NCBI GenBank assembly: GCA_018334055.1
Contig: JAGXSS010000005.1
Coordinates: 1-37,699, forward strand
Length of the DNA: 37,699 bases
Reading direction: 5' to 3'
Origin: Peptococcaceae bacterium
Lineage (GTDB): Bacteria; Bacillota; UBA994
Within the stretch, counting starts at the first letter, position 1. The number at the start of each line of letters is the position of its first letter. Shown here piece by piece: positions 13,567 through 31,111 of the stretch. The notes under the pieces are model-generated. The model was not told the origin of the DNA, did not search any database, and was given only the letters and a program-made list of their open reading frames with translations. Both the position numbers and the translations under genes were made by a program.

Positions 13567-13731
13567 CTGCATGTGCTTTTTTATGTAGGACATGTATGAG
13601 ATGCTCAACTGAAACATGTTGTGAAACCCTGTATTTTCAATGGTTTATGCCAAATCGATAGTTACATCATAGATGCGGGTGGCGGGAATGCAGGTTGTAG
13701 TACGGCCTAAGTGAGAGTTGAGGTGGAGAAG

Positions 13732-16700
13732 GTGAAGCGCATCGCCTATGTGGACCTCGAAATCCACAGCAAGAAGAAGACCGTCTTGGATATTGGGGCG
13801 ACTGACGACAGTGGCGCCGAGCTACACTCAAAGTCTCTGCCAGCGCTTAAACAATTTCTCGTGGCACACGACTACATCTGTGGACACAATGTATTAGCGC
13901 ACGACTTGCTCTACATGCGCGAGGCACTGGCGGAACGCCCCATGTTGCGCTGGAACGTCATCGATACGCTATACTTGTCGCCGCTGATGTTCCCGAAAAG
14001 GCCATACCACAGCCTGGGCAAAGACGAAAAGCTTATGACTGGGGAGCTGAACAATCCCTTAGCAGACGCTAAAAAGACCAGAGAGCTATTGCAAGATGAA
14101 ATCTTGGCATTTCGCCGCTTAGATAACTCCCTGCAACAAATATATTACCAGCTCTTAAGAAAGCGCAAAGAGTTTCGTGACTTCTTTAGTTTCGTGGATT
14201 ATTACGCAAACGTTCCGGATACTGTCGGCCTTATTCAGGCGCGTTTTGCCGGGCTGGTGTGTGAGCGCGCCGATTGGGCTAAGCTGATGGCCACCGAACC
14301 TGTGGCGTTGGCCTATGCCCTTGCCGTCATCGACACCCGTGACAGGGCCTCCTTAACACCGCGGTGGGTGCTAAAGAACTTTCCGCAAATCGAGGCCATT
14401 ATGTATCTGCTCAGAAACAGGCGGTGCCTAAAGGGCTGTGCCTACTGCGATGAGTTCATAGATGCACACAAGGCACTAAAAAACTACTTCGGGTTTGACG
14501 ATTTCCGCAAATTTGGGGACGAACCACTGCAAGAAAACGCTGTCAGGGCCGCTATTGCGAACAAGTCTATTTTGGTCGTATTCCCTACCGGCGGGGGGAA
14601 AAGCGCTACTTTTCAGGTGCCGGCGTTGATGGCGGGGCAAAACGTGCGCGGACTGACCGTAGTTATATCGCCGTTACAGTCCTTGATGAAGGATCAAATC
14701 GACAACCTAGAAAAGATCGGCATCACCGATGCGGTAGCTATCAACGGGTTGCTTGACCCCATTGAGCGGGCCAAGGCGCTAGAGCGTGTAGAAGATGGCT
14801 CGGCGGCGATACTCTATATTTCGCCCGAGTCTTTGCGGTCGCGCACCATCAAGCGGATGCTCCTGGCCCGAACAATTGCTCGGTTTGTCATTGACGAAGC
14901 GCACTGTTTTTCGGCGTGGGGACAAGACTTTAGGGTGGATTACCTCTATATCGGGGAGTTTATCAAAGAGCTGCAGGTAGCAAAGCAGCTTGTGGACGGT
15001 ATTCCGGTATCTTGCTTTACCGCCACCGCTAAGCAAAAGGTAGTAGAAGATATTTGTGCGTATTTTAAAGACAAACTAGGACTAGAACTCGTGCTCTTTA
15101 CCACGAACGCGCCTCGCAAGAATCTTACTTTTCGCGTGTTGGAACGAATAAGCGACGAAGCCAAATATGAGACCTTGCGCAACTTAGTCCAAGAAAAAAA
15201 CTGCCCGGCCATTGTGTATGTTTCGCGCACAAAGACGGCCTTTGCTTTGGCGGATCGGCTCTCGCGGGATGGATTTGAAGCCTTGCCCTACCATGGCCAG
15301 ATGGATGTGCGCGAAAAGTCCGCTAACCAGAACGCCTTTATGGAGGGAAGGGTGCCCACCATAGTGGCGACCTCGGCTTTTGGCATGGGTGTCGACAAAA
15401 AAGACGTAGGGTTAGTCGTCCACTACGAAATCTCGGACTCCTTGGAGAACTATGTGCAGGAAGCGGGCCGTGCCGGCAGAGACGCGAATATAACTGCCGA
15501 TTGCTATGTTTTGTATCATGAGGACGACCTCAACAAGCATTTGACCTTGCTCACGCAAACCAAAATAAGTAGCAAAGAAATTCAACAAATTTGGCAGGCA
15601 ATAAAAGGCCTCACCCGTCTGAGAAAAAAAGTCTCACAGAGCGCGCTTGAGATTGCCCGCGCCGCAGGCTGGGACGAAGCCATGCATCAGCTAGAGACGC
15701 GGGTGAAAACGGCGATTGCCGCACTAGAGCAATCTGGTTATGTTAAACGCGGGCAAAATGTTACCCGCGTGTTTGCCGATAGCATTTTGGCCCGCAATGT
15801 TCAGGATGCTGTCGAACGGATTGACGCCTGTATGGAGTTTGATGACAGCGATCGTAAGGACGCCACGCGAATTATAAAGCACCTGATATCTAGCCGCAGC
15901 AAAAGCTTAGCTACGGGTGAGGACGATGAGGCGGTGGTGCAGGCCGACTATATGGCAGAAGTGCTCAGCATCAAGCTCGAAACAGTGATTAGGGTGCTGA
16001 CCAGCCTGCGTGGAGCAGGCATTTTGGCAGATGCTCAAGATCTCAGCGCCTTTATTCAGCGAAACGAAAAAGTGAACAAATCGTTAGATGTTCTGGTGTC
16101 TTATACCGGCATTGAAAGATACCTGGCGACTGTGGTCGATGAATCAGAGCAACTAGTAAATTTAAAGGAGTTAAACGAAGCAGCTGCGGCCTCGGGATGC
16201 TTAGCCACAAGTACGAAGAAGATTCGTGCCGTGCTTAATTTTTGGAAAATATGCAAGCTGGCAGAGTGCGCCAACGCTAGCCATTCAGCCAATCATGTTC
16301 ATCTCAGGGGCATACAGTCGGGCCCGCAATTGAGGCAACGTCTAGAGCGTCGCGGCGAAATCGCCAAGTTTATTCTAGGGTATCTGTATGCGCAAAGCCA
16401 TGCCAACAAGCCGGTGCCGGGCAAAGAGGAAGTGTTAGTGCAGTTCTCGGTGCATGAGCTAAAGCGATCTTACGAGGAGAGCCAAGACCTTTTCAAGACT
16501 AGAATTACGATTGACGATATTGAGGAGGCCTTGTTTTACCTATCGCGGATTGACGCACTAAAGATAGAGGGCGGCTTCCTCGTGCTCTACAACCCAATGA
16601 CTATCGAGCGCACCCACGAGGATCTTAAAAAGCGCTACACCAACGAAGACTACAGCCAGCTCGAGGGATATTACAAAAACAAAGTGCAGCAAATACACAT

Positions 16701-18537
16701 CGTCGGTGAATATGCGCGCAAGCTGATTGCCGATTATGAGCAAGCGCTGCAATTCGTAAACGACTATTTTCAGCTCAATTACTCGCGCTTTCTCGCCAAA
16801 CACTTTCCGGGGGCGCGGCAAGGAGAAATCAGTAGCAACATTACACCTGCCAAGTTTAGGCAGCTGTTTGGCGAGCTGTCGGTGGCACAGTTGCAGGTGA
16901 TTAACGATAAGGATAGCAAGTATATTTGCGTTTTGGCGGGACCCGGCAGCGGCAAGACACGCGTCTTGGTGCATAAATTAGCAGCGCTCGTCCTCATGGA
17001 GGATGTAAAGACTGAGCAGCTCTTGATGCTTACTTTTTCACGCGCTGCAGCCACCGAGTTTAAGGCCCGATTACGCGCGCTTATTGGGGTGACCGCTCAG
17101 TTCATTGAAATCAAGACTTTTCATTCCTACTGCTTTGATTTGTTGGGCAAAGTGGGGAGTATCGAAAAGTCCGAAGAGATTATACGGAGCACGATTGCGC
17201 GTATAGAGGCGGACGAGGTTGAGCAGAGCCGGCTGGCCAAGACTGTGCTGGTGATCGACGAGGCTCAGGATATGGATAAGGCGATATACGACTTGGTGAA
17301 GACCCTCATCGCTCAGAACGACGGCATGCGCGTCATCATGGTGGGGGACGATGACCAGAACATATTTCAGTTCCGACATTCGAGCTCGGAGTATATGGCT
17401 AGGTTTATTGAGGAACATGGGGCAAGAGAGCATCATTTGTTGGAGAACTATCGCAGCCAGGCCAATTTAGTAGATTTCGCTAACCAGTTTGCCGCGCAGA
17501 TGCAAGGTCGACTAAAGCGCGTGCCGATTCAACCCAAGCGACAAGAAAACGGCTCCGTACGGGTGGTTAGCTATAATAGCCGCAACTTGCTCTCGCCTTT
17601 GGCGGCCGCTATCGCCGGAGCCGACTTGAAGGGGACTACCGCCGCGCTAACACGCACGAACGAGCAAGCTATGCGATTAACCACTCTGCTGCAAGCGTGT
17701 GGGGTGCCCGCCAAACTAATACAAACCAATGACGGTTTTAAGCTGTACGACCTCGACGAAATGCGCTACCTGCTAGGGTTGCTCAAGGGGGACGGAACAC
17801 GTCCAGCGGTGGACGATGAAATTTGCGTAGCAGCACGACGAATACTACAGGATAAGTACAGGCGCAGTGCGATGCTCGAGCCAACTCTCCGCATGTTTCG
17901 TGCGTTCAGAGATGACAGTGGCAAAATAAAGTATATATCAGACTTCGAAACTTTTGTACGGGAGAGCCGGTTAGAAGACTTTTACAACTACCGCGGGGAA
18001 ACAATATTTGTCTCGACTATCCACAAAGCCAAGGGCAAAGAGTTTGACAATGTGTTTTTGCTCTTAGAGGGGCTATATAATCCCACTCAGGAAGATATAC
18101 GCCAGATTTATGTCGCCTTAACGCGGGCCAAAAAGAAGCTGGCCGTGCATTATAACGGCACTTTCCTCGACAATATCGATGTCGAAAATCTGGTCAAGCA
18201 AAAAGAACTGCAACACTACCCCGAACCTAAAGAGGTGTCGTTGCAGCTCGCGCTAGCGGACGTTTTCATTGACTTTTTAAGATGCCGTCAAGAAGTGGCC
18301 GCAGGGTTGCAAAGTGGCGACGCGCTTCTACATCACAAGGATGGTTGGGTCAATGCACAGGGCGATGTGGTCTTTAAAGCGTCCAAAAGCTTCATGGAAA
18401 AACAATTACAGCCTTTGCTAGATGGCGGGTATGCTTACACAGGTGCCAAAGTCAACTTTGTAGTTTGGCGGAAGCACCAAGAAACTGACCAAGAATTCCG
18501 CGTTATCTTGCCCGAAATCTCCTTGCGGAAGAACTGA
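13732..18537 (+). CDS. DEDD exonuclease-RecQ-UvrD fusion helicase
   Basis: A single ORF of about 1600 residues with three enzyme modules. Residues 1-130: DnaQ-like DEDD exonuclease (YVDLEIH, GHNVLAHDLLYM, NNPLADAKKT, the last with Asn where His is common). Residues about 250-650: RecQ-type SF2 helicase (FPTGGGKS, FVIDEAHCFSAWGQDF, FTATAK, QEAGRAGRD). Residues about 1060-1490: UvrD-type SF1 helicase (LAGPGSGKTR, VIDEAQDMD, GDDDQNIFQFR, STIHKAKGKEFD, YVALTRAKK). I favour the GTG at 13732 because GAGGTGGAG precedes it; an earlier GTG at 13711 is possible. Likely role: DNA repair, recombination or foreign-DNA processing. Confidence 0.92.
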   Translation: MKRIAYVDLEIHSKKKTVLDIGATDDSGAELHSKSLPALKQFLVAHDYICGHNVLAHDLLYMREALAERPMLRWNVIDTLYLSPLMFPKRPYHSLGKDEKLMTGELNNPLADAKKTRELLQDEILAFRRLDNSLQQIYYQLLRKRKEFRDFFSFVDYYANVPDTVGLIQARFAGLVCERADWAKLMATEPVALAYALAVIDTRDRASLTPRWVLKNFPQIEAIMYLLRNRRCLKGCAYCDEFIDAHKALKNYFGFDDFRKFGDEPLQENAVRAAIANKSILVVFPTGGGKSATFQVPALMAGQNVRGLTVVISPLQSLMKDQIDNLEKIGITDAVAINGLLDPIERAKALERVEDGSAAILYISPESLRSRTIKRMLLARTIARFVIDEAHCFSAWGQDFRVDYLYIGEFIKELQVAKQLVDGIPVSCFTATAKQKVVEDICAYFKDKLGLELVLFTTNAPRKNLTFRVLERISDEAKYETLRNLVQEKNCPAIVYVSRTKTAFALADRLSRDGFEALPYHGQMDVREKSANQNAFMEGRVPTIVATSAFGMGVDKKDVGLVVHYEISDSLENYVQEAGRAGRDANITADCYVLYHEDDLNKHLTLLTQTKISSKEIQQIWQAIKGLTRLRKKVSQSALEIARAAGWDEAMHQLETRVKTAIAALEQSGYVKRGQNVTRVFADSILARNVQDAVERIDACMEFDDSDRKDATRIIKHLISSRSKSLATGEDDEAVVQADYMAEVLSIKLETVIRVLTSLRGAGILADAQDLSAFIQRNEKVNKSLDVLVSYTGIERYLATVVDESEQLVNLKELNEAAAASGCLATSTKKIRAVLNFWKICKLAECANASHSANHVHLRGIQSGPQLRQRLERRGEIAKFILGYLYAQSHANKPVPGKEEVLVQFSVHELKRSYEESQDLFKTRITIDDIEEALFYLSRIDALKIEGGFLVLYNPMTIERTHEDLKKRYTNEDYSQLEGYYKNKVQQIHIVGEYARKLIADYEQALQFVNDYFQLNYSRFLAKHFPGARQGEISSNITPAKFRQLFGELSVAQLQVINDKDSKYICVLAGPGSGKTRVLVHKLAALVLMEDVKTEQLLMLTFSRAAATEFKARLRALIGVTAQFIEIKTFHSYCFDLLGKVGSIEKSEEIIRSTIARIEADEVEQSRLAKTVLVIDEAQDMDKAIYDLVKTLIAQNDGMRVIMVGDDDQNIFQFRHSSSEYMARFIEEHGAREHHLLENYRSQANLVDFANQFAAQMQGRLKRVPIQPKRQENGSVRVVSYNSRNLLSPLAAAIAGADLKGTTAALTRTNEQAMRLTTLLQACGVPAKLIQTNDGFKLYDLDEMRYLLGLLKGDGTRPAVDDEICVAARRILQDKYRRSAMLEPTLRMFRAFRDDSGKIKYISDFETFVRESRLEDFYNYRGETIFVSTIHKAKGKEFDNVFLLLEGLYNPTQEDIRQIYVALTRAKKKLAVHYNGTFLDNIDVENLVKQKELQHYPEPKEVSLQLALADVFIDFLRCRQEVAAGLQSGDALLHHKDGWVNAQGDVVFKASKSFMEKQLQPLLDGGYAYTGAKVNFVVWRKHQETDQEFRVILPEISLRKN

Positions 18538-20683: not shown

Positions 20684-21508
20684 TTACACCAATTCCCCCG
20701 GAGGATTACCCGTGCGCTCGGGGACTATTTCCTTTTCGCGCAAAATCGCCTTCAGGCCCCGAGCGCGAGTAACTAGTCCTGCGCTTTCTAGGGTTTTTCG
20801 CGAAAGGGTGTTGTAGTACCAACATCCCGCCAAGGGCTTAAGGCCTTGATCATAACACCATTCCTTAAGACTCCACAAAATGTACTTGCCTACCCCTTGT
20901 TGACGATACTTAGCGCAAGTCACCATGCCAATGCTTGCATAGCCCACATGGTATCTGCTCAGCACAGATATCCCACAGCCCAAGAGCTCTTCTCCGGTAC
21001 GAAGCATGAAAATAGTTCCGCTCGCAATATCCGATTCATCGAAAAAGTTGTTGGTCTCCTGTTGAATATAGGGCAGATCTGCCAGAGTTGCCTGAGTAAA
21101 GTCAATGTTGTCAAAGCTGAGGTCTGGACGCTCAATTTGGAACCCATCCTGGAAGAAGTATGCGCCCTTCTCCTTGTCAAACTCCCAGTCCATAACTAGG
21201 CTGACTAAGAGCTGATCTGACGTCCGGAGGTATACATTCTTTATGTCCAGGCTCTTAACGGCCTCCTCAAAAATATCTTGGGCGGACCACAAGTAGCGAG
21301 CGTCTACATAGAAAAACCACAGGGTCTGTCCCTGAGCCCCTATAAACCCTATGTGGGTCCCTCGGTCTATAACTGAAAAGATAGTGCACTTGTCTAGATT
21401 ATCCTCTGCCCATGAATCCATGGGCTCGCTCAAGCTGTGTAAATAAGCCGTCAGCCACTCCCTGTTCTCCTTCAGACTTGATGGGATAAATTCGCATAGC
21501 ATTTTCAT
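20684..21508 (-). CDS. GNAT-family N-acetyltransferase
   Basis: A 274-residue protein with a C-terminal GNAT domain. The acetyl-CoA loop is YRQQGVGKYILWSLKEW, preceded by the strand GYASIGMVTC and followed by WYYNTLSRKTLESAGLV, the usual N...S....GF-like end. The N-terminal half (residues 1-140) resembles a degenerate first GNAT-like lobe. AAGGAGAGGA precedes the ATG by about eight bases. It is convergent with the PspC pair; the 207-base gap between them holds no gene that I can see. Substrate unknown. Confidence 0.85.
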   Translation of the reverse strand: MKMLCEFIPSSLKENREWLTAYLHSLSEPMDSWAEDNLDKCTIFSVIDRGTHIGFIGAQGQTLWFFYVDARYLWSAQDIFEEAVKSLDIKNVYLRTSDQLLVSLVMDWEFDKEKGAYFFQDGFQIERPDLSFDNIDFTQATLADLPYIQQETNNFFDESDIASGTIFMLRTGEELLGCGISVLSRYHVGYASIGMVTCAKYRQQGVGKYILWSLKEWCYDQGLKPLAGCWYYNTLSRKTLESAGLVTRARGLKAILREKEIVPERTGNPPGELV

Positions 21509-21550
21509 GAATTTGTCCTCTCCTTACAAAGCGCGAATTTTAAATTTAGA

Positions 21551-21697
21551 ATGACATGTGTCAACAAGAATGGCAAGAGATTGTGTGTATGCTGCGGTTC
21601 CGCGTGTAGCCGAGATGTCTTTCAAGATCGGCTGCTCAAGGCAGATTTTGGCAAGTTACCAAAAGGGTTGATTAAAGAAATTGTTAAGCGAAAGTAG
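21551..21697 (+). CDS. Small cysteine-rich ORF, probably a gene fragment
   Basis: Forty-eight residues from ATG 21551 to TAG 21695-21697. The first half carries five cysteines (MTCVNKNGKRLCVCCGSAC), the second half is basic and helical (LLKADFGKLPKGLIKEIVKR). The clustered cysteines could bind metal. No strong ribosome site, so it may be the 3' end of a lost gene. The rest of the 21509-21859 gap shows nothing I can call. Confidence 0.35.
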   Translation: MTCVNKNGKRLCVCCGSACSRDVFQDRLLKADFGKLPKGLIKEIVKRK

Positions 21698-21868
21698 ACC
21701 GAAAATTGACTACCTCTATGACGCTAACAGGATTCAACAGGGTACCAGAGCCGCTTGATAAATGCTTGGCGATAGCATCGAACGGATGGCACGATTAAAC
21801 GGTCGAAATTAACGGAGCAAAACACAGGACAAGAAAACGGACAAAGAAACAAAGAAGGGGTGAGAATA

Positions 21869-22504
21869 ATGCAAAAAATCGCACCTCATTTGTGGTATGA
21901 CAAAGAAGCCAAAGAAGCCAAAGAAGTAGCAGAGTTCTATATCGGTTTGTTTGACCAATCAAAACTCATCAGTACTACCGTTATCGGAGCGACGCCTTCG
22001 GGAAATACGGACATTGTAAGCGAAGTTCGATCTTCAGGTTGCCCCCACCATTTGCCACACTCCTCAATTGTCTACAGTGCGAAGGGAATGATAAGAAATA
22101 TGAGTGACTTTACCGCGTTTCCTGCCCTTGAAACAAGTCGGCTATTGCTCAGAAGAATGAGTCATGATGATGTCGAGGACTTATTTGCGATGCGCCAGGA
22201 CGCTCGTATGCATAAGCATACGGATACTAAACCAGACGAAACCGCCGCTGAAACCTTCGCCTACATTGATAAGATGAATCGGGGGGTTGATGGCAACAGA
22301 TGGCTCATTTGGGCAATTGAGCACAGGCAATCGCACAAGGTAGTTGGTACCATCTGTGTTTGGAATATCGATAGGGAAAACAATAGTGGTGAGCTTGGGT
22401 ATGGGATTGTCCCCGATTATCAGGAGCAGGGATTAGCCAATAACCGCGTTTATCGGCTAATCGTCTATGGCTTAGATCGCAGCACATGGAAACAAGGGGG
22501 TTAA
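21869..22504 (+). pseudogene. VOC-protein/GNAT chimera, both parts truncated
   Basis: From ATG 21869 (GGGGTGAG upstream) the first 50 or so residues match PhnB/demethylubiquinone-methyltransferase-like VOC proteins: [19 protein letters not shown], then [23 protein letters not shown]. The VOC fold breaks off near 22030. In the same frame a RimJ/RimL-type GNAT begins ([22 protein letters not shown] at 22099) and continues through [16 protein letters not shown], then ends abruptly without the second half of the acetyl-CoA domain. A hairpin (GATTAGCC...GGCTAATC, about 22431-22462) marks the break. Two decayed genes joined by deletion. Confidence 0.7.
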
Positions 22505-23618: not shown

Positions 23619-23756
23619 CCGTTTTTTGTTGGTCAAACGCCGCTGGAACTGCTGCTGGGCAAAGAAATGCTGGTGGTGGCCTGGGCGGTGGAGGACTGCC
23701 GGATTGTTCTAAGCGAAACTGAAAAAAGGAAATGCCTGCTTGAAGGATGGAGGTAG
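23619..23756 (+). pseudogene. Second relic, possibly DUF3780-like
   Basis: The frame reads RPFFVGQTPLELLLGKEM, LVVAWAVEDC and ends in KRKCLLEGWR. LLLGKE..V.AWA.ED resembles a segment of DUF3780 proteins that occur beside DUF499 ATPases, but the match is from memory and short. It lies directly before the five-gene operon, ten bases before its first ATG, so its end supplies the ribosome-site region (GGATGGAGG). Likely leftover of an older defence locus. Confidence 0.4.
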
Positions 23757-23783
23757 GCTAGTCAAATGGAGGGAAATAATGAA

Positions 23784-24572
23784 ATGGAAAACAACTCTAC
23801 GCATGGCTTTGAAAACGCACTAGCAAAAACGGAAAACGATGTAGACGCGACAGTAAAAGCCGCAACTTCTGTGCTCATCTCCTTAAAGAAAATTCATGGT
23901 GCAGTCAAGACAGGGAGCCTCCGTGAGCTCAAGAAAACGATAGAATCTACCGAGCAGGCCATCGCCGCGCTGAAGGAGCAATTTGCCAACACCAAGGAAG
24001 GGTGGGATTTCGACAGCGAAAGCTATATTGCCAGCAAGGCGTTTCCAGAGGAGCTTCTGGGAATGGCCGAATCTATGGGAGTGAAAATCTTTGAACAGGA
24101 TGAAAGCCTATACTGCTATCCTCTGCTCATTCGTATTTTGCCAAGTGAGCTTGCGGTTCAAATTGATAAGACCAAAAGTAGACATTTAAGGCCCTCGGCA
24201 TTAATCAAACATCTCAAGACATTACAGAATAAACCCGAAAGATTTAAGCCGGAGATGTTTCTAGAAAGTCTATTCTCGGCCTATTACACTCTCCGAAAAA
24301 GTCGCGGGATGGACCAAAGCGGCAAGGCGATGGTGATACCCCTTCTCGAGATATACAAGTTGTTGACGTTGCTTCCGGGGCAGGCCAAGGAATATCCACG
24401 ACAAGAATTTGCAAGGGACATTTATCTTCTTGACCGGAGTGGCGTAGCAAACACGAGGGAAGGGTTTGTCCTGAGGTTTTCGGACAGAGGTTCCTCCAGT
24501 CGGACCGTTAGAGTCATTACTCAGGAAGGGCAAGAAAAAATCTATTATGGGATTGCCTTTGCGAAGGATTAG
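23784..24572 (+). CDS. Operon gene A: coiled-coil protein of unknown function
   Basis: The first gene of the five-gene module. ATG 23784 has GGAGGG ten bases upstream; ATG 23766 is an equally in-frame alternative. Residues about 15-75 look like a helical coiled coil (LKKIHGAVKTGSLRELKKTI, TEQAIAALKEQF). A conserved-looking core follows: WDFDSESYIASKAFPEELL, YCYPLLIRILPSELAV, LRPSALIKHLKTLQ, and the end reads GQEKIYYGIAFAKD. No catalytic motif or membrane segment is seen. The position suggests a structural or recognition subunit for the ATPase and helicase downstream. Not a family I can name. Confidence 0.8.
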   Translation: MENNSTHGFENALAKTENDVDATVKAATSVLISLKKIHGAVKTGSLRELKKTIESTEQAIAALKEQFANTKEGWDFDSESYIASKAFPEELLGMAESMGVKIFEQDESLYCYPLLIRILPSELAVQIDKTKSRHLRPSALIKHLKTLQNKPERFKPEMFLESLFSAYYTLRKSRGMDQSGKAMVIPLLEIYKLLTLLPGQAKEYPRQEFARDIYLLDRSGVANTREGFVLRFSDRGSSSRTVRVITQEGQEKIYYGIAFAKD

Positions 24573-24584
24573 GAGGCATGTGGC

Positions 24585-25550
24585 ATGTACACCACTAAAA
24601 AAGAATGGTTAGACATGATTCGTGGCGAGTATCTGCATGATTTCGTTAAACGTGGCGGCGCAGCAGTAAAATTCTGTGTCCCGATGGAGGATGTTGACCA
24701 TAGCCAATTACTTGCGTCACTGCGCGCAGCATCCGAGGACGAAAGCTATATTTATGCATCGATTGATGCCGCTTCCACAAAAATTCACATGATTGACAAG
24801 CTGTTTCATGAGGTAGCTCGACAAATAGACTGGGATGATCTAGCAAATGTCTTTGTTCGCAAGATTTTTAGCCAAAAGAAATATCAGTTACCGGAGCACC
24901 GCGAGGACTTTAATCTGCAGAATATAGCATTGCTCAATGACCGTGAGGAGATGTTTTTACGAAACGAGCTGCATTCATACCTAGAAAAAGAAATATTTGG
25001 TGATTTCGCGATGAGTCAGGAGTTTAGAATTGCCATGGTTCGTCTCTGCCTAAATCAACTGGACACAGCGAGCGCGCCTGTTTATCTGAGCGCTGCGATT
25101 AAAGAATGGTTGCGCGGCGAGCTGCGGTTAATTTCAACTTTAAGGAAAGCCCTTATTTTTCAGAAAATAGCCCGGCATAATGCCCGGCATTTGTTGTTTT
25201 CTCTTACCCACTGGCTCAGGATAAACGGTAAGAGTGGCCTGATGCTCGTGCTTGATATTACTCGCTATCTCGCGGCGACTAGATCGAAGAATCCCGCTGA
25301 TGGTTTTTTCTATTCCACCCCTGCGGTGCTGGATGCCTATGAACTGCTTCGCCAATTCATCGACGGCACGGACGAAATGGAAGGCCTCCTTGTTATTGTG
25401 CTTGCGCCTAAGGAGTTTTTGAGTGATGACAAGCGGGGTTTGCGGGGTTATGACGCCTTAAAATTGCGAATTTGGGATGAAGTTAAAGACCGGCAAAGAC
25501 AAAATCCCATGGCGTCAATGGTTCGCCTAGCAAATCGGGTCGCAGACTAA
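24585..25550 (+). CDS. Operon gene B: BREX-ATPase-like protein lacking Walker A
   Basis: A 321-residue protein resembling the BREX ATP-binding (DUF2791/BrxD) family but without a P-loop: where GxxGxGKT would stand the sequence is FVKRGGAAVKFCVPMEDVDH. A Walker-B-like strand remains at about 217-228 (KSGLMLVLDITRYLA), without the usual DE. Other helical stretches: KIHMIDKLFHEVARQIDWDD, KALIFQKIARHNARHLLFSL, YDALKLRIWDEVKDR. GGAGG precedes the ATG by eight bases. I infer a catalytically silent ATPase subunit pairing with gene C. No frame damage. Confidence 0.75.
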   Translation: MYTTKKEWLDMIRGEYLHDFVKRGGAAVKFCVPMEDVDHSQLLASLRAASEDESYIYASIDAASTKIHMIDKLFHEVARQIDWDDLANVFVRKIFSQKKYQLPEHREDFNLQNIALLNDREEMFLRNELHSYLEKEIFGDFAMSQEFRIAMVRLCLNQLDTASAPVYLSAAIKEWLRGELRLISTLRKALIFQKIARHNARHLLFSLTHWLRINGKSGLMLVLDITRYLAATRSKNPADGFFYSTPAVLDAYELLRQFIDGTDEMEGLLVIVLAPKEFLSDDKRGLRGYDALKLRIWDEVKDRQRQNPMASMVRLANRVAD

Positions 25551-25569
25551 AGGTTGAGGGAGGTGCACC

Positions 25570-26835
25570 ATGAATATTGCTGACCGGGTGAAAAGTAAAC
25601 GTGCTATTGAAGCACTGCGCAATGGGGTGCCAAATCGAGACGCCGTCGCGGTGTTAGGTTCGAATCAGCCAGAGATAGAGGAGAAATTCCGACGGCAACT
25701 TCAAGGCACAAAGCGTATGCTTAGCGGCGGCAACGAAGGAATGTTAGTGGCGGGTGATTTCGGCACGGGAAAATCTCACCTCCTCGAATATCTCCGGCAT
25801 CTCGCCCTCGAGCAGAATTTTGTCTGCAGTAAAATTGTTGTTAGCAAAGAGACCCCTCTTTTTGAGCCTGCGAAGCTATTTCAGGCGGCGTTAGAAGCTG
25901 CCATTGTGCCCGGCAAACGGGGCAATGCGATGACCGAAATTGCCACTGCGCTGAAATTCAACAGCCAAGAGTATGCTGACTTTTATCAATGGACACACCG
26001 GGATGCCGGCCTTAATGCGAGATTTGCCGCTACGCTATTTTTATTTGAGCGAATGTCTAACGAGCCTGAGCTCAGCGACCGCATTATCCGGTTCTGGTCC
26101 GGTGCGAGAATAGAAGCTGGAGAAATTCGAAAATATCTTAAGGAATGTCGAGAACCGGTGACTTATAAGATTGAGAGAATTGCAGCGAACGAACTGGCTT
26201 TGCAAAGATTTGAGTTTGTTGCCCGTCTCATCTTGGCGGCAGGTTACTCCGGATGGGTCTTGCTGATTGACGAAGTGGAATTGATTGGCCGATACTCACT
26301 CTTACAGCGGGCCAAGTCCTATGCGGAACTTGCGCGGTGGATGGGAAAACCAGAAGGTTCAAGTGTCGCGGGTTTAACATCAGTCTTGGCAATCATACAA
26401 GCGTTCCAGAGCATCATCTTGGAAGGAAAAGATGACTTTGAAAAAGTACCTAACAAATTGCGGGCCAAGGGAACTGAAAACGAACTTCTTCTAGCCAGCC
26501 ACGCCGAAAGAGGAATGCGAATCATTCAAAACGAATCGATGCTTTTAAGAGCACCGGACAAAGAGTTGTTGGCGCAAACTTATGAAAAAGTTAAATCCAT
26601 ACATGCCAGCGCCTATGATTGGGAACCGCCGGCAGTGCAATCTATTGAGCAGATGAGCAGTGCGCGGATGCGGCAGTATGTAAAAGGATGGATTACGGAA
26701 TGGGACCTTAAAAGGCTTGATTCCGGCTATACTCCCACAATAGAGGTTGGGGGCCTTGAGCCTAACTATGCCGAGGATAAGAATTTAGAGGTAGAGACGG
26801 AAATAGGATTAGATAACAACAATAACCACGGCTAA
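25570..26835 (+). CDS. Operon gene C: BrxD/DUF2791-like AAA ATPase
   Basis: A 421-residue P-loop ATPase of the BREX ATP-binding (DUF2791) type. Walker A is GDFGTGKSH (62-70) and Walker B is GWVLLIDEVELI (228-239). The N-terminus reads RAIEALRNGVPNRDAV, and GLTSVLAIIQAFQS lies in the sensor region. The last 40 residues are acidic and asparagine-rich, probably flexible. GGGAGGTG precedes the ATG. Family members act in BREX type 2 and in TerB-linked loci, usually beside a helicase, as here. I infer it drives or gates DNA loading with gene B and the SNF2 helicase. All motifs intact. Confidence 0.85.
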   Translation: MNIADRVKSKRAIEALRNGVPNRDAVAVLGSNQPEIEEKFRRQLQGTKRMLSGGNEGMLVAGDFGTGKSHLLEYLRHLALEQNFVCSKIVVSKETPLFEPAKLFQAALEAAIVPGKRGNAMTEIATALKFNSQEYADFYQWTHRDAGLNARFAATLFLFERMSNEPELSDRIIRFWSGARIEAGEIRKYLKECREPVTYKIERIAANELALQRFEFVARLILAAGYSGWVLLIDEVELIGRYSLLQRAKSYAELARWMGKPEGSSVAGLTSVLAIIQAFQSIILEGKDDFEKVPNKLRAKGTENELLLASHAERGMRIIQNESMLLRAPDKELLAQTYEKVKSIHASAYDWEPPAVQSIEQMSSARMRQYVKGWITEWDLKRLDSGYTPTIEVGGLEPNYAEDKNLEVETEIGLDNNNNHG

Positions 26836-26856
26836 GCACGGGGGAGGTCACTTAAA

Positions 26857-27417
26857 ATGCCGATTCCTTTTCGTGATGCTGATGAATTAAGCGATTATGG
26901 CATAGCAGGATATTTAGCGATTCAGCCTGTAAAGGAAGGCTCTGGCTATCTGGCCGCTCTTTTTTTGATCAATGCACGCGGTGAACCGATAGAATTTACG
27001 TATAATCGCATCGAGACTCCACATACCTTTCTCTGGCGGCAAGAAGATCTAAAGCGCCACGCAGTAAAAAATGTAACCATGTCGCTTCTCTCTTTATGTC
27101 CCAAAGTACCGTGCCTGCTGTTTTGTCGCGCTGAAGAAGTCGGCAGCGAACTTTTCGGTCAAGATATACAGTTATCGATTCCTGTCTGCCGTATCGCGCC
27201 GGCAATTAAGCCCCTTCTTTACTCGGCAACCGAAGTACAAGAGCCGATAGAGGCGGAAGAACCCCTAAATCTCTTTTGGTATCCCGGAAAACCTCCTGAA
27301 GACTCAACCGAAGTGAAGCTTTTGCATGAATTGTTAAGCCGGGGCTTGCTCATTGAGCCCTTTGAGCGGGCATTGACCGGGCTGCGGGAGATAGCCCAGA
27401 TAAAGGGGCAGGGATAA
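26857..27417 (+). CDS. Operon gene D: small unrecognised protein
   Basis: A 186-residue acidic protein with GGGGGAGGT before its ATG. Its stop overlaps the helicase ATG (TAATG), so synthesis of the two is coupled, which suggests a complex. Visible stretches: GIAGYLAIQPVKEGSGYLAA, EFTYNRIETPHTFLWR, CPKVPCLLFCRAEEVGSELF, and a C-terminal helical LLHELLSRGLLIEPFERAL. No catalytic motif, signal peptide or membrane segment. Likely a mixed alpha/beta adaptor. Function unknown. Confidence 0.78.
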   Translation: MPIPFRDADELSDYGIAGYLAIQPVKEGSGYLAALFLINARGEPIEFTYNRIETPHTFLWRQEDLKRHAVKNVTMSLLSLCPKVPCLLFCRAEEVGSELFGQDIQLSIPVCRIAPAIKPLLYSATEVQEPIEAEEPLNLFWYPGKPPEDSTEVKLLHELLSRGLLIEPFERALTGLREIAQIKGQG

Positions 27418-29273
27418 TGCCGAAAGAGGCAATCTGGTGGGAGGAAAAGTTGGCTCATGCCTCTCCGAATGCGCGCTGGTTTGGGTTTTTTAGGCGGTCA
27501 GTAAAGCTCAACGAGCATATCCCTAGAGGGCTGTCCGTACCATCGGTAATTCTATCGGCTCCGCAAGGTTTATCTGCAGCGGATGGCGACGCATTGTCGT
27601 CACCGACTTCATTGCTGAGCCAATGTCTTATAGATGTGCCTATTAATCATATTTCTGGGCAGACGCAATCCGGCCACTTTGTCCGCGGCAGTGTGGCACT
27701 GGCCGGCGGTTTGTTAACCGAGAGTGCATTGGGGTCAAACTTGGCAATGCCGACACGCGGAGAGCCGGCCTCGCCACGTTGGCAAGTTAACAATAAGCAA
27801 GGTAAAGATAATCAGGCTGAACCGGAAATATCTCTTGCCAAGCGTTTAGCTTACTTGCTCCAACCGCCAACAGAAATCTTGCTATCAAAAAGCGGTCCGT
27901 TGGCATGGCCGTTGACTTTGTTCGATTATCAGATTGAAGGCATAAGAACCCTACTTTCGCGGGATGCCTTGTTGCTGGCAGATGACATGGGGCTTGGGAA
28001 GACCATTCAGGCGATAGGCGCACTACGCATCCTTTTTCTGCAACGCCGCATTGAGTCGTGTCTGCTGCTGGTCCCGGCGAGCCTAGTCGGTCAGTGGCGA
28101 AAAGAAATCCACTACTTGGCTCCGGAATTGCGTACCTCCACCATTCGCGGCACAACGACAGAGCGAACATGGCAATGGGCTGCGCCGGCCCATATTTATC
28201 TGACTAGTTATGAAACCTTCCGGTCGGATTGTACCGACAACGCTCAATCACCGCCCCGTCGCCGGGCATGGGGGGTTGTGATTCTTGATGAAGCACAGAA
28301 AATTAAGAATCGTGATGTGGAGATCAGTCGTAAATGCAAACTTCTGAATCGACAGCGGGCTTGGGCCCTTACGGGCACACCACTTGAAAATCAGGAAGAT
28401 GATCTCGCTTCTATTCTCGAATTTGTAACGAGTCTTAGAGAAGGGGAAACATCGCCGAGGCTCAAACCGGGTTTTGAACTCCGCGAAAGACATAACAGAT
28501 TACAGCTTCGCCGGAAGAAAAAAACCGTGCTCCCCCAACTTCCACCCAAAATAGTCAGTGAGATATCTCTAATCATGAATAGGCGGCAGCGCGAATGCTA
28601 TGAGCGGGCAGAAAAAGAAGGTATTATCCAGCTAAAGGCAAGCGGCGAGGATGTTAAAGTAGAAAACATTCTTGAGCTCATTATGAGATTAAAACAAATA
28701 TGCAATTTTTGTCCGTCAACAGGGAGTTCAGTGAAGTTTAATGATGTTCGAGAAAGGCTGACCACTCTCGTATCTCTGGGACACCGGGCGCTAGTCTTTT
28801 CTCAATTCACGGATTTTACCTATGGAGCAAGGGCCATAGCGTCGAACCTCAGGGATTTTAATCCGCTTCTGTATACCGGCGACCTTTCACAACTACATCG
28901 CGACATGATCATTAAGACCTTTAAAGACAACCGCGAGCATAAGGTGCTCATTCTTTCCCTCCGTGCCGGCGGACAAGGGCTGAATTTACAGGATGCGTCC
29001 TATGTTTTTCATTTTGACCGCTGGTGGAATCCTGCCGTGCTACATCAGGCTGAGGACCGAGCCCACCGCCTCGGCCAGACCTTCCCAGTTAATGTCTATA
29101 AGTACATTATCGAGGATACGATTGAGGAACGGATTGAGCAAATCTTAAAGACAAAGCAATTGCTTTTTGATGAATTGGTGGACAATGTTTCCATCGACCT
29201 CAAGTCAAAATTGTCAAGCGAAGAACTTTTCGGCTTATTTGGATTAGTCCCTCCGGAACGCTTGAAGTTATAA
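27417..29273 (+). CDS. Operon gene E: SNF2-family helicase/translocase
   Basis: A 618-residue SWI2/SNF2-type double-stranded DNA translocase. Residues 1-150 are not recognised and look poorly structured. Motifs: Q/I LADDMGLGKTIQAIGAL (Lys196), Ia LLLVPASLVGQW, II VILDEAQKIKN (DEAQ), III LTGTPLENQEDDL, IV RALVFSQFTDFT, V SLRAGGQGLNLQDA, VI HQAEDRAHRLGQ. Every core motif is intact. It is the last gene, coupled to gene D. Helicases of this type move along DNA in DISARM-like and other defence systems and in transcription-complex recycling; with genes A-D a defence or DNA-surveillance role is my inference. Confidence 0.92.
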   Translation: MPKEAIWWEEKLAHASPNARWFGFFRRSVKLNEHIPRGLSVPSVILSAPQGLSAADGDALSSPTSLLSQCLIDVPINHISGQTQSGHFVRGSVALAGGLLTESALGSNLAMPTRGEPASPRWQVNNKQGKDNQAEPEISLAKRLAYLLQPPTEILLSKSGPLAWPLTLFDYQIEGIRTLLSRDALLLADDMGLGKTIQAIGALRILFLQRRIESCLLLVPASLVGQWRKEIHYLAPELRTSTIRGTTTERTWQWAAPAHIYLTSYETFRSDCTDNAQSPPRRRAWGVVILDEAQKIKNRDVEISRKCKLLNRQRAWALTGTPLENQEDDLASILEFVTSLREGETSPRLKPGFELRERHNRLQLRRKKKTVLPQLPPKIVSEISLIMNRRQRECYERAEKEGIIQLKASGEDVKVENILELIMRLKQICNFCPSTGSSVKFNDVRERLTTLVSLGHRALVFSQFTDFTYGARAIASNLRDFNPLLYTGDLSQLHRDMIIKTFKDNREHKVLILSLRAGGQGLNLQDASYVFHFDRWWNPAVLHQAEDRAHRLGQTFPVNVYKYIIEDTIEERIEQILKTKQLLFDELVDNVSIDLKSKLSSEELFGLFGLVPPERLKL

Positions 29274-29406
29274 AGCGGTATTTTGACCAGTGCCACTTCT
29301 GCAGTTCTCTCATCCTGTGCTTCTGGCAACACTGACTGACTGTCGCTCTAATCACTAGACCGATTTGCATAATGCGGTTCCGGAGAGCCGCCATCACGGT
29401 CGTATA

Positions 29407-29700: not shown

Positions 29701-30540
29701 ATGCCGAAGGCTAGCATCTTCTACTTTTCAGGAACGGGGAATACATGGTGGGTAGCCAACGAGCTAGCCGCTGCGCTTAGCCAGCGCCGCATTGAGGCCA
29801 GCGCGTACTCCATTGAGCAGATAGCGGCGGGACGCGCTGCGGAGTTAGTCGCCGCGTCAGACCTAGTTGGATTTGGCTACCCTATATACGGCTCCGACCT
29901 GCCTCTTCCTATGCAGCGCTTTATCGTTGAAATCGAAGTGCGCCCTGCTAAGCCCGCATTTGTATTTTGCACGCAGTGGCTGTGGTCGGGGGACGGAGCC
30001 AGCTTAGGGGCCGCTATGCTGAGAGCGCGAGGGTTCGAGGTACGGTGGGGAGAACACTTTCATATGCCAAGCAACGTCTCCGTGCCGGTTCTGCCCTGGC
30101 CCTTACACACCGACGCGCCTCCGGCCAAAGCAAAATACCTGCGGCATTCGTCGTTTCGCGTACAACGGCTTGCCGAGCACATAGCACAGGGCCGGCTATT
30201 CTATCGTGGGTTTAATACGCTTTCGACTGTGGCCGGGCTCTTGCAACGTGCCCCTTATCGCCGCCATCTGCACAAGTTCCGCGACGCCTTGGCACCGGAC
30301 CCGGCGCGCTGTACGCGCTGTACCCTTTGCGTGCGGCTTTGTCCCACCGACAATCTCCTTCTCGAGCATGACACAATCCGCACCGTAGGGCGGTGCGTAC
30401 TTTGTTTGCGCTGTTACAGCTTTTGTCCCGAGTATGCCATGCTTTACTGCGGCCGAGCGCATCGCCACGGGCCGCCCTTTAGGGGGCCTAGCTTAGGGTT
30501 TGACCCGTTCGCGCTTATCGGCCCACACAAGCGTTTTTAG
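29701..30540 (+). CDS. EFR1-type flavodoxin-ferredoxin protein
   Basis: A 279-residue electron-transfer protein. I chose ATG 29701 (MPKASIFYFSGTGNTWWVAN), five bases after GGGGG, over an upstream TTG that adds unrelated residues. The N-terminal flavodoxin-like fold binds FMN (YFSGTGNT phosphate loop). The C-terminus carries two 4Fe-4S motifs: CTRCTLCVRLCP and CVLCLRCYSFCP. This is the EFR1 architecture common in anaerobic Bacillota. Role: electron carrier, partner unknown. It probably belongs with the GNAT gene downstream only by position. Confidence 0.9.
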   Translation: MPKASIFYFSGTGNTWWVANELAAALSQRRIEASAYSIEQIAAGRAAELVAASDLVGFGYPIYGSDLPLPMQRFIVEIEVRPAKPAFVFCTQWLWSGDGASLGAAMLRARGFEVRWGEHFHMPSNVSVPVLPWPLHTDAPPAKAKYLRHSSFRVQRLAEHIAQGRLFYRGFNTLSTVAGLLQRAPYRRHLHKFRDALAPDPARCTRCTLCVRLCPTDNLLLEHDTIRTVGRCVLCLRCYSFCPEYAMLYCGRAHRHGPPFRGPSLGFDPFALIGPHKRF

Positions 30541-30622
30541 GGTGTGCGCTGTGCCTTGCAGTTGGCGTAGGTGCAGAGATAGCAGAGTAAGAACAATAGA
30601 CTTTTCGCAAGGGGGAAGCGGG

Positions 30623-31111
30623 TTGATAGACATATCCAATTGCAGCGTGCGCTTGGCCACAGAAGCAGATGTACCTGCTTTGCACCGCCTCGTGCGGGAA
30701 GCATATCGCGAGCACATCGGCCGCGGGCTTAACTTCACCGGCACCTATCAAGATGAAGGCATCACCCGTGAGCGCATGGAGGGTAATGACGTGTACTTGG
30801 TGTGTCAAGGAAGTGAGATTATCGCCACAGTTACGCTTGGCCGTGACGAAGAAAAGGACGGCGTGTTTGGGCTGTACGTCACGCAGCTGGCGGTGACGCC
30901 CATGTTAAAGCGACAAGGCCTAGGCAGATTGCTCCTCACATTAGCCGAAGAACGCGGCCGAGAACAGGGTGCTGCTTTCTTACGGCTTGACACCGCTATG
31001 CCCGCAACCCATTTGGTCGCCCTCTACCAGTCAGAGGGATATCAAGTGGTAGACGAAGTGCAGTGGGAGGGCAAGGCATATAAGAGCTGCATTATGGAAA
31101 AGCGGCTTTAG
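30623..31111 (+). CDS. GNAT-family N-acetyltransferase
   Basis: I chose TTG 30623 because GGGGGAAG lies just before it and the sequence upstream (from 30500) is unlike protein. The product is 162 residues: strand 1 SNCSVRLATEADVPALHRLV, motif A LAVTPMLKRQGLGRLLLTLA, motif B ALYQSEGYQVVDE. It matches the size of single-domain GNATs. It uses acetyl-CoA on an unknown substrate. The gene ends before a palindromic repeat (31132-31160). Confidence 0.87.
   Translation: MIDISNCSVRLATEADVPALHRLVREAYREHIGRGLNFTGTYQDEGITRERMEGNDVYLVCQGSEIIATVTLGRDEEKDGVFGLYVTQLAVTPMLKRQGLGRLLLTLAEERGREQGAAFLRLDTAMPATHLVALYQSEGYQVVDEVQWEGKAYKSCIMEKRL

Follow-up and report, generated by a model that had tools for sequence, protein, structure and literature searches.

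The DNA analysed here, 37,699 nucleotides of contig JAGXSS010000005.1 from a Peptococcaceae bacterium (positions 1 to 37,699, hereafter the window), carries at 23784-29273 an operon of five genes, A-E, whose products include two BrxD-like ATPases and a SNF2-family helicase. A preliminary description had taken this operon for a candidate defence system. The locus raises the question of what such a combination of genes does, and whether all five of them form the functional unit. Gene order across genomes suggests an answer to the second part: the conserved unit appears to be the first three genes, A-B-C, with gene D and the SNF2 gene as one of several exchangeable partners. As for the first part, a defence role can be inferred from context, and we consider A-E to be probably an anti-invader operon that is mobile and of a modular kind so far undescribed, in which A-B-C would load or license a DNA motor.

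Open reading frame (ORF) finding returned five intact genes, all on the plus strand. Gene A (23784-24572, about 262 amino acids) is the constant first gene of the A-B-C core and encodes an N-terminal helical hairpin (coiled coil) followed by an alpha/beta C-terminal part. Its first ATG according to the ORF finder lies at 23766; 23784 is the better start, because the gene A orthologues in two other genomes (loci L019 and L215) begin with MENN/MENI at that position, and the DNA homology with L215 starts at 23781. Genes B (24585-25550, 321 amino acids), C (25570-26835, 421 amino acids) and D (26857-27417, 186 amino acids) follow after gaps of 12, 19 and 21 bp, and the stop codon of D overlaps the start of gene E (27417-29273, 618 amino acids) as TAATG. 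A purine-rich GGAGG-like sequence resembling a ribosome-binding site precedes every start, so that the five tightly packed genes of the preliminary description are borne out.

The distribution of the genes in other genomes offers the clearest view of what belongs together. A search with gene B was positive in 15 of 299 genomes of the phylum; in these, A precedes B and C follows it, the exceptions being the two weakest matches, at loci that resemble Shango and BREX. Across 85,000 species genomes 286 relatives were found, from sources including Desulfosporosinus, Syntrophomonas, Lachnospiraceae, Sphaerochaeta and Synergistaceae, and the best 80 of these keep A, B and C in sequence unless the contig is too short to show it. 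We surveyed the gene neighbourhood at 123 loci, some of them cut by contig ends (a first set comprised 91), from Bacillota-type lineages, Spirochaetes, Synergistes and two plasmids (of Desulfomonile and a cyanobacterium). The order of A, B and C is constant at all loci where the three are present, while the partner is exchanged from clade to clade. Within 4.5 kb a helicase, CRISPR or BrxL partner was found at 96 of the 123 loci: a superfamily 2 (SF2) helicase resembling the PbeA helicase, here called F3, at 66, a UPF1/DNA2-like superfamily 1 (SF1) helicase at 15, a type I CRISPR-Cas operon at seven, D with SNF2 at three (plus one partial locus), BrxL at two, a BrxHI/SngC-like helicase at two and a lone SNF2 gene at one. 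A helix-turn-helix (HTH) gene is the partner at three further loci, and none was detected at 24, many of which are short contigs. Partner type tracks the A-B-C clades, with ultrafast bootstrap (UFBoot) values of 99-100 for the SNF2, CRISPR, SF1, HTH, BrxL and F3 groups. The five-gene operon proposed as a system in the preliminary description therefore holds in so far as its order recurs, whereas the unit itself is not fixed: its core is A-B-C and its motor is swapped.

The preliminary description had called B BREX-ATPase-like and C BrxD-like (formerly DUF2791), and the Pfam matches to PF10923 BrxC_BrxD agree with this, at 43 bits for B and 72 bits for C. Gene C encodes an AAA+ ATPase of the BrxD/ORC-Cdc6 type. 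It has both Walker motifs, A (GDFGTGKS) and B (LLIDEVE), within which G65, G67, K68, D234 and E235 are invariant in the alignment. B is of the same type but has lost Walker A, reading KFCVPMEDVDHSQLL at the P-loop position in the window versus KFLTGRMGSGKTHFL in relatives, and the proposed pairing of an active with a P-loop-less ATPase is thus found. The B and C families match each other with 98.6% probability over 265 columns in a profile-profile comparison (hhalign), and the two genes are paralogues; they encode the only two PF10923 proteins in the whole genome. Among PDB sequence relatives, B gave only marginal matches to the DnaA P-loop and C gave none.

An inactive B is a feature of the window, but it does not define the system. 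Most B relatives carry GSGKT or GSGKTH, and the P-loop is kept at 84 of the 91 first-set loci. In the alignment it is absent from the window, L019, L215 and the CRISPR clade; by clade, it is lost in the SNF2 clade, the CRISPR clade and an SF2-type subclade (L044, L046, L048), for which at least three independent losses in the tree would be the simplest reading. The ratio of nonsynonymous to synonymous substitution rates (dN/dS) for B is about 0.14 between the window and L019, and B is under purifying selection although it lacks the P-loop.

The exchange of motors is visible from the gene neighbourhood alone, across PbeA-like SF2, UPF1-like SF1 and BrxHI-like helicases, the CRISPR operon and BrxL. 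F3, of about 530 amino acids, lies near A at 64 first-set loci, in a divergent arrangement at 61; it has ResIII, DEAD and Helicase_C domains by Pfam and is PbeA-like by PADLOC. Several carriers of A-B-C without F3, the window's genome among them, have no strong F3 match anywhere in the genome. The SF1 partner, a helicase of about 870 amino acids with AAA_11/AAA_12 domains and a topoisomerase-type zinc ribbon, lies 3' of A-B-C in L216-L224, L226-L228, L231, L234 and L235, some copies being truncated by contig ends, and apparently represents another undescribed form. The brxL gene directly follows A-B-C in L025 (1155-6336) and L230 (5920-11309), with no further BREX gene identified on the stretch seen. 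The BrxHI/SngC-like helicase accompanies A-B-C on a Desulfomonile tiedjei plasmid, where the operon adjoins AbiEi/AbiEii, and on a conjugative Aulosira laxa plasmid, where it directly follows a gene annotated as encoding an alkaline-phosphatase-domain protein, a brxD and a brxHI gene.

Some further arrangements were noted. In L024 (624-10509), A-B-C is followed in one direction by genes for an unknown protein of 437 amino acids, an HSP70-like protein, an unknown protein of 545 amino acids and a metallo-beta-lactamase-fold protein. L028, L029 and L171, a close trio within one family, have a gene for 346-418 amino acids 5' of A-B-C, with a helix-turn-helix by profile in two of them and no obvious helicase. 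On a contig from a viral collection (L116:1-7405), a B homologue, cut off by the start of the contig, adjoins a Mu-type portal gene, and the contig may represent a prophage border.

The copies embedded in CRISPR loci form a single A-B-C clade (UFBoot 100) comprising those CRISPR loci with all three genes, together with L225 and L212, which are short contigs. In the type I-B locus L022 (1-16000) the order is cas8?-cas7(Cst2)-cas5t-cas3-A-B-C-small genes-cas1, and in the type I-D locus L027 (1-19001), which has a repeat array of 58 copies, it is cas10d-cas7(Csc2)-cas5?-cas3'-A-B-C-DUF4282-cas1. The I-A/G-like locus L170 (6000-16100) reads cas3-cas8?-cas7(Csa2)-cas5?-A-B-C-cas4, where C and cas4 have a short match to cas1 between them; Cas6 follows C in L169 (8555-12662), and L213, L214 and L229 are also CRISPR-associated. 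The three genes thus often sit between the interference genes and cas1/cas4, the subtypes vary while A-B-C stays unchanged, and B is without a P-loop in all members of the clade where the position is readable. This placement could hint at a regulator acting in trans on an endogenous system, for instance CRISPR adaptation, in which A-B-C would modulate the cas genes or the uptake of spacers and the SNF2 form would be derived, and the presence of cas1 in the L019 genome and, split and elsewhere, in that of the window would fit such a role. However, most A-B-C loci have no cas genes nearby and three genomes (G108, G379 and G241) have no detectable cas1, which makes this explanation very unlikely. 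In the window's own genome, the cas1 lies on another contig (G000:C98:15723-16594), where it reads as two overlapping pieces and is possibly frameshifted.

The five-gene form is itself not confined to the window. A-B-C-D-SNF2 occurs in L019, from the same family but another genus, and in L215, from another family of the phylum, while L130, from a third genus, shows a partial cassette at a contig edge, with the C-terminus of C followed by D and E. Because the five-gene order recurs in two genomes and partly in a third, the arrangement is more than chance, and the question of whether homologues of A-E are found together elsewhere can be answered positively. Protein identity among the window, L019 and L215 is 71-81%, and the cassette DNA is 75-79% identical across genomes. 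By blastn and comparison of flanking proteins, the shared DNA spans 23690-29278 in total (23690-29266 with L019, 23781-29278 with L215); on the left it stops no more than about 100 bp from the operon, and on the right after a few bases. As a 6.8-kb contig from a genome bin, L215 may have been binned wrongly, which leaves the comparison with L019 unaffected. Values of dN/dS between the window and L019 range from 0.10 to 0.24 across the five genes, ratios that are approximate since dS exceeds 1 for four of them, and all five genes are under purifying selection.

The flanking proteins are unrelated between genomes, the congeners G136 and G216 lack gene A, and the cassette is absent from most of the family. 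Homology that ends at the cassette edges, unrelated flanks and absence from congeners are together what a cassette that moves between genomes would show. An empty site in conserved synteny could not be made out, because only the amidase at the locus is shared with relatives. Relatives that act in DNA repair are known for SNF2, UPF1/DNA2-like and XPB-like helicases alike, which, along with the many SF2-type loci lying among metabolic genes, leads to a different explanation: a housekeeping or stress DNA-repair operon in which B and C serve a chromosomal repair translocase as clamp or helicase loader and have nothing to do with immunity. Such an operon would hardly be expected to be as patchy as A-B-C (17 of 398 phylum genomes) and missing from congeners, or to appear as the same cassette in unrelated flanks and in another family, nor would A-B-C be expected on plasmids, inside CRISPR operons and beside BrxL. 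We therefore regard repair as unlikely.

The motor of the window's cassette is the product of gene E, a SNF2-family SF2 DNA translocase with SNF2-rel_dom (157 bits) and Helicase_C (72 bits) domains by Pfam, confirming the earlier assignment, and its motifs DMGLGKT, DEAQ and QAEDRAHRLGQ are kept in relatives. The best PDB match is 1z63, an archaeal SNF2/Rad54 helicase, and the best PADLOC matches are ZorD and DpdE. No nuclease fusion was detected in E, and a tblastn search of plasmids with this gene returned general SNF2 proteins only.

Genes A and D are less readily placed. Gene A has no significant Pfam match, no PADLOC or NCBIfam family was found for it, and its sequence search returned only helical-bundle noise. 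Its AlphaFold2 model, built with 67 sequences, has a mean predicted local distance difference test (pLDDT) score of 89.7 and consists of two long helices (15-49 and 52-79) followed by a mixed alpha/beta part; Foldseek gave no PDB match at E<1 and no match in the viral BFVD at E<0.05. An identity of A with TerB/SngA was ruled out, as there is no Pfam TerB match and the profile comparison with SngA of L032 gave a probability of 0.1%. The TerB link drawn earlier falls away with this, and with the lack of any further PF10923 protein in the genome. Gene D matches no Pfam, PADLOC or NCBIfam family and occurs only beside this SNF2 gene: its orthologues are those in L019, L130 and L215; a search of 398 phylum genomes gave three relatives only, and none was found in plasmids or viral contigs. 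The D of L130 is 40% identical to that of the window, and a single-sequence AlphaFold2 model (pLDDT 42) is too poor for use. The preliminary description had looked for the effector in A or D. A is unlikely to fill that role because it is a constant part of a system with differing partners, and D remains a candidate.

The constancy of A-B-C beside four helicase families, BrxL or CRISPR suggests that the three genes supply a shared step in DNA defence rather than killing. We propose that B and C would combine into one mixed AAA+ assembly, with ATP hydrolysis falling to C and a structural or sensory part to B, while A, by analogy a scaffold or adaptor, would hold or target the assembly. By analogy with BrxD-BrxHI, A-B-C together would load or release the motor, licensing it on invading DNA; in the window this would be E with its small partner D. 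The block might then come from motor-driven clearing of foreign DNA or interference with its replication or transcription, or alternatively from a nuclease supplied in trans. D or the host could provide such a nuclease, though translocation alone may suffice.

Motors with no visible nuclease might equally point to displacement or silencing, and PbeABCD reportedly acts without cutting viral DNA directly (PMC6459918). This is the starting point for an explanation by plasmid or mobile-element exclusion, in which the complex tracks, clears or represses plasmid or conjugative DNA and not phage. Two A-B-C copies are themselves plasmid-borne, and we consider this explanation improbable; its mechanism is common to that of the anti-invader operon proposed here, and the target alone differs. 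Several points weigh against the anti-invader operon itself. No nuclease is visible in A-E, no motor lies nearby at 24 loci, and the loading mechanism would follow from analogy alone. Nearest neighbours of the F3-type loci are mostly metabolic, with about 10 of 108 defence-like, and defence-island enrichment is not established because this count has no matched control.

Extended to all clades, the same reasoning would make A-B-C a general immunity motor-adaptor, that is, an AAA+ pair with a new-fold adaptor, coupled clade by clade to at least four helicase families (SNF2, PbeA-like SF2, BrxHI/Ski2-like SF2 and UPF1-like SF1), to BrxL and to type I CRISPR-Cas. The common step would be loading, licensing or target sensing, and B would have become a pseudo-ATPase at least three times independently. 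We give this generalization about even chances. If true, one AAA+ core would link BREX, Shango-like, Pbe-like, SNF2 and type I CRISPR systems as interchangeable front ends, and the action of BrxD/SngB ATPases on helicases would become directly testable, with the same core and four unrelated motors. The A-B-C copies between cas3 and cas1 would also stand out as a CRISPR-associated module, and no description of it was found in the open-access literature; the main text of a terascale CRISPR survey (PMC10910872) mentions no such ATPase. Annotation tools would moreover be able to pick up a system overlooked by the present PADLOC and NCBIfam models.

The surroundings of the cassette were also considered. 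Pfam assigns the five flanking genes between 20.7 and 32.7 kb to two GNATs, one unknown, a ferredoxin/flavodoxin and an amidase. On either side of the cassette lie genes for GNAT acetyltransferases, at 20684-22504 and at 30500-31111, the latter assignment being an ORF reading with no search behind it; the N-terminus of the one at 21860-22504 also matches a 3-demethylubiquinone methyltransferase domain. Farther upstream, a 1608-amino-acid ORF (13711-18537) is weakly similar to proteins that relatives encode on unrelated contigs (L134, L135). The window holds no CRISPR-like repeat array and no tRNA, and none of the genes of the cassette or of the flanks examined was recognised as a cas gene. Promoter-like sites in the window are fewer than in shuffled sequence, and terminator-like sites reach about twice the shuffled mean but are scattered.

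How, then, does the cassette relate to known systems? Nearest is the BrxD-BrxHI pair of BREX type 2, where a PF10923 AAA+ protein likewise adjoins a DNA helicase, as C does with E in one operon, and a BrxHI-like helicase is in fact the partner of A-B-C in Desulfomonile and Aulosira. In a recent account (PMC12839542), BrxD is classed as an ORC-Cdc6 AAA+ ATPase and proposed as loader or activator of BrxHI, while a sensor role is suggested for inactive STAND modules of the BrxB kind. In PADLOC and NCBIfam, B and C come closest to BrxD, with SngB second, yet stay far under the curated BrxD cut-off (C scores 54 bits against an equivalog cut-off of 350). Unlike BREX type 2, the cassette has two paralogous ATPases plus A, its motor is SNF2 rather than Ski2/Lhr-like, and no PglX, PglZ, BrxC or PglW is seen in it; no BREX core (PglZ/BrxZ, BrxC, modification gene) was found in the cassette and its five flanking genes. 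With Shango, a tested antiphage system with measured activity comprising the SngB ATPase and SngC helicase (PMC10250203), the cassette shares the three-part logic of accessory protein, BrxD-like ATPase and helicase. It differs in having no TerB protein, two ATPases and SNF2 in place of SngC, which is absent among the 25 best of the 46 PADLOC matches of E; the SngB model matches only weakly, scoring C at 36 bits and B at 24, where a true SngB reaches 519.

PbeABCD and CxC-DndE are approached through F3, the commonest A-B-C motor, which resembles the helicase part of PbeA. F3 has no PLD nuclease domain in Pfam, however, A, B and C match no Pbe model, and the window has no F3. Zorya, DISARM and DpdE helicases share the SNF2 core of E, but ZorA/B are missing, A-D give no Zor or Drm matches in PADLOC, and E, which aligns only to the helicase part of ZorD, lies far under the 1500-bit NCBIfam cut-off for that protein. 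The DISARM analogy of the preliminary description proved poor, since DrmD (80 bits, where the NCBIfam cut-off is 610) is matched less well by E than SCO1167-type and ZorD helicases are. Its statement that the locus is neither complete BREX nor DISARM stands, the core genes of both being missing from the tested set. One A-B-C clade is built into type I CRISPR-Cas operons of I-A/G, I-B and I-D type, whereas the window cassette lies outside that clade, separate in the tree. By its gene content, the cassette is neither BREX, Shango, DISARM nor Zorya. No account of the A-B-C module was found in the open-access literature, and an earlier description beyond it is possible; the parts of PMC12839542 and PMC10853773 drawn on here describe neighbouring systems and not A-B-C. 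The combination of a BrxD-type ATPase with a helicase is already known from BREX type 2 and Shango, and what is new here is an unusually broad modular variant of it.

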